NCBI GenBank assembly: GCA_011391865.1
Contig: JAABPV010000002.1
Coordinates: forward strand, 1 to 64,000
Reading direction: 5' to 3'
Length of the DNA: 64,000 nt
Source: Desulfobulbaceae bacterium
Lineage (GTDB): Bacteria; Desulfobacterota; Desulfobulbia; Desulfobulbales; Desulfobulbaceae
The notes beneath the pieces are model-generated. The model ran no database searches. It had not been told where the DNA came from and worked only from the letters and a program-made list of their open reading frames with translations. The first letter of the stretch is position 1. Each line of letters starts with the position of its first letter. This document shows, piece after piece, positions 23,101 to 64,000 of the stretch. A program made the position numbers and the translations under genes.

Positions 23101-23787
23101 CTACCTGCCCGCCTCTTCGCCCGCCTCCGCCGCTGACCAGTTCGGGTCATACACGGACGGCGCGGCTTTGCTGCCCCCCGCGATCATGAAGATGCCGTAG
23201 GTGCTGCGCCAGTTAGGCAAGCGGCTGACAACCGCTCCCTTGGTCTCGTGGTGGTGGCTGCTGATCGCCACTTTCTTGAGGATGACTCCGTGGATCCTAC
23301 GGACAAAGATGCGGAAGTCCTTGAGGGTGATGATGCGGATGTTCGGCGTGTTGTGCCACTCGTAGGGAAACTGCTCGTTGCGCGGCGCGGCCCCGGTGAG
23401 GAGCAGCTGAAGCCGCACGCGCCAATGGCTGAAGTTAGGGAAGCTGACGATCACTTTGCTGCCCACTGTCAGCAGCACTTGCAGCAGTTTTTCAGGATCG
23501 TAAACCTGCTGGAGGGTCTGGCTGAGGACAATATAGTCGAAGTGATTTTCCGGGTAGTCGGAAACCTCCTCAATAAAGTCGCCGTGCAGCACAGACAAGC
23601 CCTGGCTGATGCAGAAGGCCGCTTTGTCCTCATCCAGCTCGATGCCCACGCCGCGCACCTGCTTCCCGTGCTGCAAATGCAGGAGCAAGTCGCCGCGCCC
23701 GCAGCCAAGATCGAGCACGCGGCTGCCCGGCTCAATCCAAGAGGAAATGACTTGCAGGTCAAAGCGCATTTCACTCGCCTCACGCAT
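23101..23787 (-). CDS. metW: MetW, methyltransferase-fold partner of MetX
   Basis: 228 aa. SAM-fold motif I 'VLDLGCGRGDLLLHL' near residue 24, then 'GVGIELDE', 'LSQTLQQVYDP' and 'FPNFSHWRVRLQLLLTG' are hallmarks of MetW. It works with homoserine O-acetyltransferase in methionine synthesis in many proteobacteria. The ATG has AAGGAG at a good distance. Usually metX and metW overlap; here a 300-bp gap with a palindromic array separates them. Confidence 0.9.
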   Translation of the reverse strand: MREASEMRFDLQVISSWIEPGSRVLDLGCGRGDLLLHLQHGKQVRGVGIELDEDKAAFCISQGLSVLHGDFIEEVSDYPENHFDYIVLSQTLQQVYDPEKLLQVLLTVGSKVIVSFPNFSHWRVRLQLLLTGAAPRNEQFPYEWHNTPNIRIITLKDFRIFVRRIHGVILKKVAISSHHHETKGAVVSRLPNWRSTYGIFMIAGGSKAAPSVYDPNWSAAEAGEEAGR

Positions 23788-23843: not shown

Positions 23844-24087
23844 GAGCATAAGCTATGTTTGGCGCAGAGCATAAGCTATGCTTTGTCCGAGCATAAGCTA
23901 TGCTTGGTGCAAAACATAAGCTATGCTCCGGGAGAGCATAACGTTATGCTCTGTGCGAGCATAGTACTATGCTCCATCCGAGCATAAGCTATGTTTGACA
24001 AGAGCATAGGCTATGTTTTACCGAAAGCATAAGCTATGTTTTGTGCGAGCATAAGCTATGCTCGCCGGGAGGCAAGCGTTATGCTCC
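23844..24087. repeat. Palindromic array B: 11 units of 22-23 bp between metX and metW
   Basis: Units start near 23844, 23867, 23889, 23912, 23934, 23957, 23980, 24002, 24025, 24047 and 24070, giving steps of 22 or 23 bp. The core is GAGCATA-(3-4 bp)-TATGCTC. Two units are perfect 18-bp palindromes with different centres: GAGCATAACGTTATGCTC and GAGCATAGTACTATGCTC. Spacers of about 5 bp are variable. The array fills almost the whole gap between the metX stop and the metW ribosome-binding site, so it is transcribed if the two genes form an operon. Confidence 0.92.
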
Positions 24088-24095
24088 CTTCAGCC

Positions 24096-25226
24096 TCAGC
24101 GGCGTTCTTCTTCAGAGCGAGCAGCGAGGAACCCGGCGAGCAGGCCGGTCAGGCGTTTGCTGGGAATGAGGAAGCCGTCATGGCCGCTGTCTGCTTGGAT
24201 CTCGCAGAAGCTGACGTTGATGCTGTTCTTTTTCAGCAGCCTGACCAGCTCCTTGGACTGATACGTGGGATAGAGCCAGTCTGAGGAAAAGGAAGTGACA
24301 AGGACATGCACGCCAGCGTCGGCCATGCGGGTCAGCGTGCCGCTGTCCACGGCGGTGAAGTCGAAGTAGTCGGCGGCTTTGGTGATGTAGAGCAGTGAGT
24401 TTGCGTCAAAGCGACGGACGAACTTTTCTCCCTGATAGTGCAGGTAGCTCTCGACCTCGAAGTTAGCGTTGAAGTCATAGGAAAACGAGCAGCGGCCTTG
24501 CAGTCTCCTACCGAATTTGCGGCGCATCGCCTCATCGGACAGATAGGTGACATGACCGATCATCCGCGCCACCGCCAAACCCAGTTCCGGTGCTTCTCCG
24601 TCGTAGTATCGTCCCTGCCGCCACTTGGGATCTGTCATGATCGCCTGCCGGGCTATCTCGTTGAAAGCAATAGCCAGAGCGGAATGCCGGGCAGTGGTTG
24701 CCAGCAGCACTGCCGAAGCCACGGCCTCCGGGTAGCTGGCGCACCATTGCAGGGCCTGCATCCCGCCCATCGAGCCGCCGACCACGGCCAGCACTCGGCT
24801 GATGCCAAGATGGTCGAGGAGCATCTTCTGCGCCCGCACCATGTCTTTGATCGTGACCACGGGAAAGTCCATGCCGTAAGGCTGGCCGGTAGCCGGATTA
24901 ACGGACGACGGCCCAGTGCTGCCCATGCAGCCGCCGATGATGTTACTGCATAGGACGAAATACTTGCGCGTGTCTATGCCCTTGCCTGGCCCGATCATGA
25001 ATTCCCACCAGCCAGCCTCTTGGGCCTTGCTGTCGCCGCCCGTATGGCTGGCAACGTGCGAGTCGCCGGAAAAGGCATGGAGAACAAGGATGACGTTGTC
25101 CTTCTGCGGACTCAGCTCGCCCCAGGTCTCGTAGGCCAGCGTGATCGGGCCAAGCCCTGCGCCGCACTCGACCGGCATCAGTCCGGGCGGTTCAGCAAAG
25201 GTGAAGTCTTGCTTGGAGCCGTTCAC
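24096..25226 (-). CDS. metX: Homoserine O-acetyltransferase
   Basis: About 376 aa. Alpha/beta-hydrolase with the nucleophile elbow 'VVGGSMGGMQALQW' (catalytic Ser), the catalytic Asp in 'FSSDWLYP' and His in 'DSGHDGFL'; also 'SGDSHVASH', 'NIIGGCMGSTGP' and 'RVARMIGHVTYLS'-like segments of MetX. It acetylates homoserine with acetyl-CoA, the first committed step to methionine. I prefer the GTG at 25226 because GGAGG lies 8 bases upstream; an in-frame GTG at 25241 would add five residues. Confidence 0.92.
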   Translation of the reverse strand: MNGSKQDFTFAEPPGLMPVECGAGLGPITLAYETWGELSPQKDNVILVLHAFSGDSHVASHTGGDSKAQEAGWWEFMIGPGKGIDTRKYFVLCSNIIGGCMGSTGPSSVNPATGQPYGMDFPVVTIKDMVRAQKMLLDHLGISRVLAVVGGSMGGMQALQWCASYPEAVASAVLLATTARHSALAIAFNEIARQAIMTDPKWRQGRYYDGEAPELGLAVARMIGHVTYLSDEAMRRKFGRRLQGRCSFSYDFNANFEVESYLHYQGEKFVRRFDANSLLYITKAADYFDFTAVDSGTLTRMADAGVHVLVTSFSSDWLYPTYQSKELVRLLKKNSINVSFCEIQADSGHDGFLIPSKRLTGLLAGFLAARSEEERR

Positions 25227-25335
25227 AGCAGCCGCCTCCACATTTTTTGTTTACTTCTGCACTGCAACATGATAAGAGAAAGGGCAGCCCGGCAGCCTGC
25301 CGGAACATGATTATTACTTAAAAAAGGAAGGAAGC

Positions 25336-25584: not shown

Positions 25585-25742
25585 TCCGACAGGATGGCAC
25601 TCCCTCTTCATGGGGGGATGTAGGGCATCGTCTTAAACTATGCGCCCTCATGTCCAGCCTGTCAAGCGCAAGCGGACAGCGGCGCAGCGATTCCCCTTGC
25701 TGCGGCTGCTTGAAGCACCGCCCGCTGCTGGACAGCCTCAGG

Positions 25743-25855
25743 GCGCAAGTGCTTGCTCATCACGCGAGCAAGTACTTGCCCGTTATGCGAGCAACTACTT
25801 GCTCATGATACGAGCAAGCGCTTGCTCGTTCTACGGGCAAGTGCTTGCTGATGTG
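25743..25855. repeat. Palindromic array C: 5 units of 23 bp
   Basis: The CAAG core bases fall at 25746, 25769, 25792, 25815 and 25838, exactly 23 bp apart. The core is GAGCAAGTACTTGCTC; one unit is the perfect 16-bp palindrome GAGCAAGCGCTTGCTC. Spacers are about 7 bp and variable. It lies between the convergent small membrane protein gene and the DUF4340 gene, and its hairpins could terminate both. Confidence 0.9.
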
Positions 25856-30981: not shown

Positions 30982-32028
30982 TCAGGCACCGCCGAACTGA
31001 GCCATATTGCAGACCTCCAGAACATATCGTCCATGTGCCAGCAGAAAATTACGCAGAGCAGCATAAGCTGCGGCATTGGCAACATGCAGTCTGACATCAA
31101 CAGAAAGGCCGGGCAGGACAATGTTTCCGCCTTCGGGAGGCACAGTGACCGGAGGCCCCATTTCACCGATGTACGGGCCGATTGCCAATGTGATCGTATT
31201 GTCCGGCTTCAATATTGCCTCAACGCGGCAATCCTCAGCTGGCGCATTGTGCTTCACAGCCTGGACAGTACCTGTCGCGTCAGCACCGGCAACAAACATC
31301 TCAAGCTGATCAGCCGCGATAAAATTCATGCTTCTCACGTACTCATAAGATCCCTCCCGGATGGTGCCGTTCGGGGTGTATCTGTTCCGGCAGAGGATGG
31401 TCTTCTCGACATTCGGAGACGCAGCAGGTGCTTCGCCGAAATCAGCAGTGATGATCACGTTTGACGGGTCATTGAGAGCAATCTTGTCCTGCTCGATCTC
31501 ATTGTCATTGGCATCAACCAAGAAGATTCCTAAATCCTCGTCATCAGCATCAAAACCAAGAAATTTCCCAGACAGGCGGAACGGATAGTCCTGACGGATA
31601 TAACGTGGGTATTGCGTGTTTGTCTCATATCCTGTGACTATTTGAGGGGATTTTGCAGGATAACCGAGCCGTTTGTACGTCGCGATGTCTTGGACAGCCC
31701 GGTTTAACTGCCTCGATATTTTGGCCGCCACTGTCACCGCATCAGGCGGAATGTCATCGGTCGGAAGGTCCAAACGCACTTGGAGGCGCGGCATGAAGGA
31801 GACGAAATTCTTTAATTTGACGAACTTGCCGTCGGCAACCTGCTCCGTGACAACCTGCTGCAAGTTCTGTAGAACTGTCTTGGCCTGCGCAGCGGTGATT
31901 GACGGATTCAGAAGGTGAATAAATTCAGCGATCTCATCATCGCCAAGTGTGTCTTCCGCAGTTGTCTGACAGCTGTATGAAGGGGGCGTGGTGAGTTTGT
32001 TCTCTCTGACATAGTATCCAACCGGCAT
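30982..32028 (-). CDS. HU/IHF-like domain protein, paralogue 1
   Basis: 348 aa. The N-terminal ~130 residues look like a histone-like HU fold: 'ITAAQAKTVLQNLQQVVTEQ' (helices) and 'DGKFVKLKNFVSFMPRLQVR' (beta-strand and arm). The rest consists of two beta-rich domains, with 'PFRLSGKFLGFDADDEDLGI' in the middle and 'GNIVLPGLSVDVRL' near the end. It resembles the DUF4469/HU fusions of some bacteria, though I am not certain of the family name. The gene at 54803 has the same order of elements and a similar C-terminus, so they are paralogues. AGGAGGT precedes the ATG; palindromic array D lies just upstream. Confidence 0.7.
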   Translation of the reverse strand: MPVGYYVRENKLTTPPSYSCQTTAEDTLGDDEIAEFIHLLNPSITAAQAKTVLQNLQQVVTEQVADGKFVKLKNFVSFMPRLQVRLDLPTDDIPPDAVTVAAKISRQLNRAVQDIATYKRLGYPAKSPQIVTGYETNTQYPRYIRQDYPFRLSGKFLGFDADDEDLGIFLVDANDNEIEQDKIALNDPSNVIITADFGEAPAASPNVEKTILCRNRYTPNGTIREGSYEYVRSMNFIAADQLEMFVAGADATGTVQAVKHNAPAEDCRVEAILKPDNTITLAIGPYIGEMGPPVTVPPEGGNIVLPGLSVDVRLHVANAAAYAALRNFLLAHGRYVLEVCNMAQFGGA

Positions 32029-32121: not shown

Positions 32122-32320
32122 CCTTCTATGTACTAAAAAGTCTCCCTTTTGAGATATAAGAACCTCCTTTTTGAGATATAGAATGGAGGTTTCTTGATAG
32201 GTAGAAGCCAGGGCTTTTGATAGGAAAAGCCGATGCCTTCTGACAGGCAAAATCTACGCCTTTTGACAGGCAAAACCTACGCCTTTTGGAAGGCAAAATC
32301 TCTGCTGTTTGTCAGCTCAT
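32122..32320. repeat. Imperfect palindromic array D: about 8 units of 22-23 bp
   Basis: Phased cores begin near 32144, 32166, 32189, 32212, 32235, 32258, 32281 and 32304. The best-preserved units read TGCCTTNTGACAGGCAAAA, with 5-bp arms TGCCT/AGGCA; leftward units drift to CCTTTTGAGATA. Spacing stays at 22-23 bp despite this drift. The array lies about 100-290 bp upstream of the HU-like gene, between it and the tRNA-Leu gene. From there to the tRNA terminator (32321-32565) I see no further feature. Confidence 0.75.
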
Positions 32321-54493: not shown

Positions 54494-54617
54494 GCCGTTG
54501 ATCGAGAGAAGTACGCACCGTTGATCGAGAGAAGTACGCTCCATTGATCGAGAGAAGTACGAACCGTTGATCGAGAGAACTACGCATCGTTGATCGAGAG
54601 AAGTACGAACCGTTGAT
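54494..54617. repeat. Array G: 6 units of exactly 23 bp
   Basis: TTGATC starts at 54498, 54521, 54544, 54567, 54590 and 54613, exactly 23 bp apart. The unit is GTTGATCGAGAGAAGTACG plus about 4 variable bases. Conservation between units is the highest of all arrays, suggesting recent expansion. Palindromy is weak (GATC and GTAC only). The last unit switches to GATCTCTCTTGC, giving a GAGAG/CTCTC pair. It lies in the divergent gap between rsmE and the second HU-like gene. Confidence 0.92.
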
Positions 54618-54715
54618 CTCTCTTGCAATGCACAGTCGCACGGGAGTGCAATCACCATAAGCACGCCCGCAGTCCATTGTTTTGCATTCTTCAGCCCGGC
54701 TGCGTCATATTTTGC

Positions 54716-54802: not shown

Positions 54803-55876
54803 ATGTCCACTCTGCAATGGCGACCAGCAGTCAACGCGCTCACCAAACCTGTTTCCTACCGCATCCAGATCATTCCCCGAAACATCGCGGGCTATGAGGA
54901 AATGGCCGCTGACATTTCCTCGGCAAATCCTGTTTACAACGATGATCTGGTGCGCTCGCTCGCGCCGCTGATGATGGAGTGGATTCAAGGGCGGATGATC
55001 AACGGCGATCAGGTCACGCTGCCCAATGCCTTTATCTTCCGCGTTTCCGCCCAAGGGCGTTTGGACAGCCCTGACGCGCCCCTGCCTGATGACGAGGACA
55101 TGCTTCAGGTGAGCATCGTCGGCACCCGTGACTTCATGCGCAGGCTGCGCTCGGAAGCCCAGCTGGAACGCCTGTCCATGAACAAGAAGATCCCGCTCAT
55201 CACTTCGGCTGAAGACACCAAGCTCAAGCTGGCTGACGTGCTCAACCCGGCTGGTCTGCTGCGCCTGACCGGCAGCAATCTGTACTTTGACGAGGACGAC
55301 CCGGACTGCGGCTGCGTGATCCGGGGCACGGAGAGCGGCGAGACCAAGCAGAGCACGTTCGGCACGATCTCCAACTCCGAGATCCTGCTTGCGCCTGACA
55401 TCCCGGCTCAGGCCCACTCGTGGAATAACGAGTACATCCTGAGCCTCACGACGCAGTACACGGAGCACGGCACGCCGCGCACCGGCATCTATGAGCGCAG
55501 GCTGCGTACTCCGCTCACAGTTCTCGGCCTCGGTGCTCCCAATCCACCAGCGACCGGCATTCTGACAGATGATTACATCACGTCGTATGTCAGCATCAAC
55601 GGAGGCTCGACTTCGGCCAATGAACGCCTGCGCATTCAGGTGATTCAAGACTTGGTGGAAGAGCGGCTGATCTTCTCGCTCATCGACATGAAGGAGGATG
55701 GCACCAGCGGTGCGGAAATCCTCGTGCCGCAGGACGGAGAATACATTCTGCCGGGCTTTGCTGGTTCAGCTGTGAGCAGCATAGAGATTACCGTGAATAA
55801 TTACGCCGCGCTCTGGGAGATGATCCGTAATTACTACAACGGCAGGCTGGTGGATGTGCTGGATGTGATGGTGTAG
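54803..55876 (+). CDS. HU/IHF-like domain protein, paralogue 2
   Basis: 357 aa from MSTLQWRPAVNALTKPVSYR; ACAGGAGAA lies upstream. The N-terminal ~130 residues again look HU-like ('YNDDLVRSLAPLMMEWIQGR', 'GDQVTLPNAFIFRVSAQGRL', 'LQVSIVGTRDFMRRLR'). A middle beta-domain ('LRLTGSNLYFDEDDPDCGCV') and a C-terminal domain ('GEYILPGFAGSAVSSIEITV', 'NYAALWEMIRNYYNGRL') follow the same order as the protein at 30982. DNA binding is plausible but not shown. Array G lies about 190 bp upstream. Confidence 0.7.
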   Translation: MSTLQWRPAVNALTKPVSYRIQIIPRNIAGYEEMAADISSANPVYNDDLVRSLAPLMMEWIQGRMINGDQVTLPNAFIFRVSAQGRLDSPDAPLPDDEDMLQVSIVGTRDFMRRLRSEAQLERLSMNKKIPLITSAEDTKLKLADVLNPAGLLRLTGSNLYFDEDDPDCGCVIRGTESGETKQSTFGTISNSEILLAPDIPAQAHSWNNEYILSLTTQYTEHGTPRTGIYERRLRTPLTVLGLGAPNPPATGILTDDYITSYVSINGGSTSANERLRIQVIQDLVEERLIFSLIDMKEDGTSGAEILVPQDGEYILPGFAGSAVSSIEITVNNYAALWEMIRNYYNGRLVDVLDVMV

Positions 55877-63135: not shown

Positions 63136-63152
63136 GCTGGCACATCCTACTT

Positions 63153-63908
<756 letters not shown>

Positions 63909-63913
63909 AAAGC

Positions 63914-63959
63914 GTGTCAAAGTCCTTGGACTTTGACACACAAAGTCCAAGGACTTTGT
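63914..63959. repeat. Palindromic pair I: 2 units 23 bp apart, after the CRISPR array
   Basis: GTGTCAAAGTCC-TT-GGACTTTGACAC (12-bp arms) at 63914-63939 is followed by ACAAAGTCC-AA-GGACTTTGT (9-bp arms) at 63940-63959. Their centres are 23 bp apart, the same step as the other arrays. It begins 5 bp after the last CRISPR repeat. No gene is visible from here to the window end. Confidence 0.85.
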
Positions 63960-64000
63960 CGCCCATTTTAGCAGGTGTAAAACAAAGAAGCAAAACAAGC

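Follow-up and report, generated by a model that had tools for sequence, protein, structure and literature searches.

Palindromic arrays paired with HU-like/DUF4469 proteins in Candidatus Electronema: a probable reading of the 11-unit array between metX and metW

The metX-metW interval of a Candidatus Electronema genome is occupied by an 11-unit palindromic array which, in our best reading of the sequence, is an unlinked and species-specific copy of the array type found upstream of the HU-like/DUF4469 paralog gene C3:53711 (C numbers denote contigs). The array probably consists of binding sites for the putative DNA-binding protein encoded by this paralog rather than of an RNA element, each paralog of the family reading its own array. 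We favour a pairing of protein and address over an RNA switch because the genome contains dozens of arrays, several types of which are tied to single family members. The features that carry this reading can be observed directly: the anatomy of the arrays, their linkage to the family genes, the units that unlinked arrays have in common with linked ones, the conservation of a palindrome beside orthologous genes and the way in which palindromes follow the HU-like domain.

The metX-metW locus

The array lies in a window of 64,000 nucleotides, the whole stretch of DNA that was analysed (contig JAABPV010000002.1, positions 1 to 64,000), whose relevant features are collected in Table 1.

Table 1. Arrays, genes and promoter-like site of the window discussed in the text
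Feature	Position	Strand	Remarks
metW	23101..23787	-	Pfam PF07021, E 1.1e-64
GAGCATA-family array	23844..24086	.	11 units of 17-18 bp each, ~5-bp spacers
metX	24096..25241	-	homoserine O-acetyltransferase-like, alpha/beta hydrolase
Promoter-like site 5' of metX	25637..25665	-	TTGACA-17-CATAGT; consensus match only
Second 23-bp array, CGAGCAAGTGCTTGCTCG family	25745..25853	.	lies 5' of the promoter-like site above; further arrays of this family at C13:18759 and C9:53116
Divergent HU-like/DUF4469 member	30982..32028	-	PF14848, PF14734 and PF18291 matches; family profile
23-bp array	32214..32301	.	186 bp upstream of the 30982..32028 gene; related arrays C4:59431 and C6:1306
23-bp array GTTGATCGAGAGAAGTAC	54495..54618	.	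upstream of the 54803..55876 gene; related array C5:23617
HU-like/DUF4469 protein	54803..55876	+	own array type GTTGATCGAGAG, unlike that of the C3 paralog
Divergent HU-like/DUF4469 frame, 5' end	63937..64000, on to C2:65052	+	immediately follows the CRISPR array

An earlier note on this DNA had described metX and metW as a normally tight operon opened here by some 300 bp, mostly array, and our results agree on each point. Most of about 100 relatives have overlapping metX and metW, by 14 bp in the commonest case, and the gap of 308 bp, mostly filled by 11 GAGCATA..TATGCTC units, is unusual among them. Comparison of the gap in related genomes, as that note had suggested, gave -4, i.e. an overlap, in the closest relative UBA5173 (90% MetX identity); in Ca. 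Electronema aureum the gap is 118 bp and holds no array. The array copy is absent from both congeners whose metX locus was read and is therefore either recent or lost there.

Tandem Repeats Finder (TRF) assigns the array a period of 23 with scores up to 201, and the spacing of its units alternates between 22 and 23. Perfect 18-bp palindromes, which had been claimed for the array, hold for two of the 11 units (GAGCATAACGTTATGCTC and GAGCATAGTACTATGCTC); the remaining nine are 17 nt long, mostly with 7-bp arms and an odd 3-nt centre. Consensus matching revealed no promoter between the array and metW, and a separate metW promoter was rejected as no candidate was found. In an Rfam scan of the window, tRNA was the sole match and no known RNA family appeared at the array.

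Arrays of two periods across the genome

The genome comprises 2.80 Mb in 87 contigs, of which 1.27 Mb (45%) were read. TRF detected 153 merged arrays in this portion, compared with 8 of any kind after a Markov shuffle, which confirms that such arrays exceed chance; their periods peak sharply at 21 and 23 bp. According to simple, home-made gene calls, which underlie all intergenic and linkage counts given here, 94 of the 113 arrays of the two classes and their multiples are intergenic, and the 1.27 Mb hold about 58 intergenic 23-bp arrays built on many different palindromes. In the 23-bp class, each unit joins an imperfect palindrome of 18 bp to a 5-bp spacer, and the 21-bp class follows a 16 + 5 pattern. 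Palindromes vary between loci: with a strict threshold, 50 arrays form 31 groups. Across about 850 kb of sequence sampled from Desulfobulbales loci, this genome's included, 21-/23-bp arrays are few, and those of the palindromic form described here come from the window's own locus. The main texts of three cable-bacterium genome papers (PMC10580974, PMC10926707, PMC10030654) make no mention of arrays of this kind.

Several individual arrays deserve description. At C4:49938-50583, a 31-unit 21-bp array free of indels contains repeated multi-unit blocks, a satellite-like higher-order repeat. At C9:31970-32112 and C30:14482-14570, two palindromes, CGGGAT..ATCCCG and TTCATC..GATGAA, alternate every 23 bp, an arrangement that would suit a heterodimer or a pair of binders. 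Two arrays, at C13:11194 and C18:13905, are built on one palindrome (GAGACACTATGGTGTCTC), and each stands just past the stop codon of one of a pair of related genes whose products share MSYVN.DD..HENG..TQFREHLS..VR.QTGE.F.IFQDRKDIAW.

Such features raise the question of a passive satellite, multiplied by slippage or recombination, which would do nothing at metX-metW although the copy beside the paralog's own promoter might work. The species-specific occurrence of the metX-metW site, its irregular 22/23 spacing, the higher-order repeats within other arrays and two more array sites where the gap is far shorter in genome G001 all speak for this explanation. Passive copying, however, does not account for spacers that diverge much faster than the palindromes they separate (within-array column identity in the 23-bp class is ~0.40 for the spacer and ~0.68 for the palindrome), and it is further opposed by a period of exactly 23 (or 21) that is kept across many copies, free of indels in most arrays, and by the near restriction of the tested motifs to arrays, with almost none outside. 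On balance we regard a purely passive origin as unlikely.

The arrays adjoin genes of an HU-like/DUF4469 family

The protein family came to light by BLAST, when the GAGCATA array region of another Electronema species (L251) matched multicopy genes adjoining arrays. Sixteen members lie in the 1.27 Mb read, the whole genome gives 35 matches, and cable bacteria carry 15-35 such genes. In their products of ~360 aa, an HU/IHF-like domain at the N-terminus is combined with an Ig-like DUF4469 domain and a C-terminal part. Among 15 members, the HU-like domain matches PF14848 in 8, PF18291 in 7 and PF00216 in 3 (E<=0.01), several of these matches falling below the curated cut-off, and DUF4469 (PF14734) is recognised in 11. 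With the family profile, the Bacteroides-type structure 4fmr is matched at E 7e-8 and chains of HU/IHF at E 0.01-0.6; structure prediction for two window sequences gave a mean pLDDT of 33. The family is present in all five Electronema genomes and in two genomes of g14, a genus that we take to be Electrothrix, and was not found in the 47 other Desulfobulbales genomes searched. None of the papers searched contains the term DUF4469. Between the CRISPR array and the divergent frame at the end of the window there is no 23-bp array.

Arrays and family genes are linked. A 23-bp array lies within 400 bp upstream of 10 of the 16 family genes, compared with 32 of 899 other genes (Fisher P 9e-11); an eleventh case, C23:16983, was recognised by eye, and five family genes lack an upstream array. 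Twelve genes have a match to a TTGACA-(16/17)-box promoter, with an array adjoining in eight, mostly just upstream of the -35 box. In addition, units of a linked array recur in 16 of the 48 unlinked 23-bp arrays, a count that rests on the 16 of ~35 family genes read. Among them is the metX-metW array, which matches the C3 array at E 5e-12.

Besides metX-metW, the GAGCATA palindrome occurs at three loci of the 1.27 Mb and in each of the four other Electronema genomes, including E. aureum, where its arrays were found by whole-genome search. The three loci are the upstream region of paralog C3:53711, C30:9457, and C19:3577, which precedes a leucine-rich-repeat/GTPase gene and has a counterpart beside that gene in both G001 and G003. 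Upstream 23-bp arrays accompany four of the seven leucine-rich-repeat/GTPase (ROCO-like) genes in the sample (C10:25447, C19:3577, C21:29663 and C21:31467). The C8:20619 array, when searched against congeners, yielded no informative matches. Relic genes beside unlinked arrays were considered and rejected, since tblastn found no gene fragments nearby.

The palindrome follows the HU-like domain

The GAGCATA palindrome stays with the C3 gene across species. An array of this type stands directly upstream of the C3 ortholog in G001 (C34:22221, 77% identity; array C34:21985-22108), in G003, which is E. aureum GS (C8:79123, 74%; array C8:78889-79008), and in G004 (C43:974, 73%; array C43 ~769-881), and a GAGCATA match lies 138 bp upstream of the g14 relative G021:C187:6660-7763 (64%). 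Other genes of the family, on C85 in G001 and on C1 and C69 in G003, are preceded by arrays of another type, ACATAC.

Within the genome, the window paralog 54803-55876 and the C3 paralog (C3:53606-54718) are 77% identical overall. They share 88-89% across the DUF4469 and C-terminal parts (88% for the latter) and 59% in the HU-like domain, and their palindromes differ; between the C3 paralog and its G004 ortholog, which have the same palindrome, identity is 81% in the HU-like domain and 58% in the C-terminal part. The first of these contrasts suggests gene conversion of the rear of the two paralogs together with divergence of the presumed reader domain. Across 12 gene-linked arrays, the Mantel r between unit similarity and identity of the HU-like domain is 0.34 (P 0.012), compared with 0.07 (P 0.30) for DUF4469 and 0.03 (P 0.41) for the C-terminal part. 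The correlation is carried mainly by two protein pairs and is for that reason suggestive rather than conclusive, and one counter-case is formed by two paralogs with different palindromes that are 67% identical in the HU-like domain. These comparisons are thus suggestive of array sequences that track the N-terminal HU-like domain and not the rest of the protein.

DNA sites rather than RNA hairpins

The earlier note had proposed that a chain of hairpins in the metX-metW transcript tunes the MetX/MetW ratio by attenuation or processing, to which an effect on stability may be added. The position of the array inside a normally overlapping operon is in keeping with this idea, as are one terminator-like stem on each strand of the array and the location of 23-bp arrays in general, a median of 67 bp from the upstream stop codon versus 142 bp to the next start. 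The transcript could indeed fold as foreseen, the 308-nt RNA reaching -134.5 kcal/mol, a strong folding energy of the kind expected for any inverted-repeat array.

Compensatory change around the palindrome axis, on which the proposal had drawn, was not borne out over 50 arrays of the same kind when real arm pairs were compared with arms dealt at random within each array. Arm complementarity was no better than random, within the unit or across the spacer (12 tests, z between -2.9 and +1.1), and an apparent excess in the spacer-centred register vanished under permutation. Both the unit-centred and the spacer-centred hairpin were rejected on these grounds. RNA hairpins are expected to favour G-T over A-C mismatches, and sense-strand ratios in the 23-bp class were 66:54 and 50:46, which is no clear preference. 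Since neither unit-by-unit covariation of the arms nor a sense-strand preference for G-T is seen, a role as RNA hairpin is left without support; moreover, the palindrome is not specific to metX and metW, but precedes the promoter of HU-like genes in several species. We therefore judge an RNA function very unlikely. Strand symmetry without covariation between arms fits DNA half-sites, and the palindrome would then be a property of the half-site consensus, as in DNA sites read by a symmetric protein.

Spread as a REP/BIME-type element by a RAYT (Y1) transposase could be invoked for arrays that are intergenic, palindromic, clustered and slightly biased to gene 3' ends, yet the whole genome has one weak, incomplete Y1 match against dozens of unrelated palindromes and the arrays are tied instead to HU-like genes, which makes this origin, rejected for lack of a matching RAYT expansion, extremely improbable. 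A phage or plasmid origin was likewise rejected, since searches of phages, plasmids and viral contigs found nothing that matched.

A second pairing

The two array classes seem to have different protein partners. In the sample, 21-bp repeats, detected by TRF or by eye, precede all six members of a ~116-aa protein family; in G000, for example, an array at C5:1552-1769 stands upstream of C5:1846-2199, the five other members being on C9, C10, C14, C23 and C24. These proteins share a conserved C-terminus, SxEYEMxGGTRxSE, have no match in Pfam or NCBIfam, and are likewise nearly confined to Electronema and g14.

Model and implications

The findings allow us to propose a model in which each paralog has its own palindrome, present in many copies at 23-bp spacing directly upstream of its promoter, with more arrays of the same type placed in other intergenic regions. 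A dimer of each HU-like paralog would bind the palindrome through its HU-like domain, and adjacent dimers would be spaced by about two helical turns. The promoter-proximal array could thereby serve autoregulation of the paralog gene, and the unlinked arrays would recruit the protein to other loci for local regulation or chromosome organisation.

At metX-metW itself, an effect of the array on the expression of metX or metW is doubtful. As no promoter lies between the array and metW, any effect would have to arise from a roadblock or local structure, and, given the irregular spacing and the absence of an adjoining promoter, this particular copy may be passive.

On a larger scale, we tentatively raise the possibility that 15-35 private pairs of protein and address form a nucleoid-wide addressing or regulatory network, paralleled by the 21-bp set with its unrelated ~116-aa protein. 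HU proteins are usually DNA benders of low sequence specificity, a point against the model; if it holds, they would have become, in one lineage, a large set of sequence-specific readers whose recognised sites stand beside each reader's gene. Such a collection would offer a natural set for learning how the HU fold reads sequence, assign a function to part of the uncharacterised HU-HIG/DUF4469 proteins and point to a possible system of chromosome organisation or gene control in multicellular cable bacteria.

Comparison with known systems

Like CRISPR, the arrays combine palindromic repeats with variable spacers, but here the spacers are 5 bp long, the repeats vary and there is no link to cas genes; the true CRISPR array of the window is separate (63152-63907). 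REP/BIME elements are likewise clustered intergenic palindromes, often after stop codons, and differ from the regular 23-/21-bp tandem arrays on many unrelated palindromes described here, which have no matching RAYT expansion.

Plasmid iterons and multi-site operators, which are bound by an initiator or by a repressor controlling its own gene, resemble the arrays in design: short sites recur about every two helical turns beside the gene of the presumed binder, and the present arrays, too, adjoin the promoter of their putative binder's gene. In contrast to those systems, one chromosome here bears dozens of site types that are unrelated to one another, each also represented at unlinked genes; the 23-bp period does not amount to a whole number of turns, and there is no sign of a role in replication. 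On the protein side, the nearest likeness is with the HU-HIG/DUF4469 proteins (PF18291, PF14848, PF14734), which share the HU/IHF-like N-terminus followed by the Ig-like DUF4469 domain, in agreement with the profile match to 4fmr. To our knowledge, no such arrays accompany the described members; the family considered here differs in being linked to arrays, in its 15-35 copies and in its restriction to two genera among the relatives searched.
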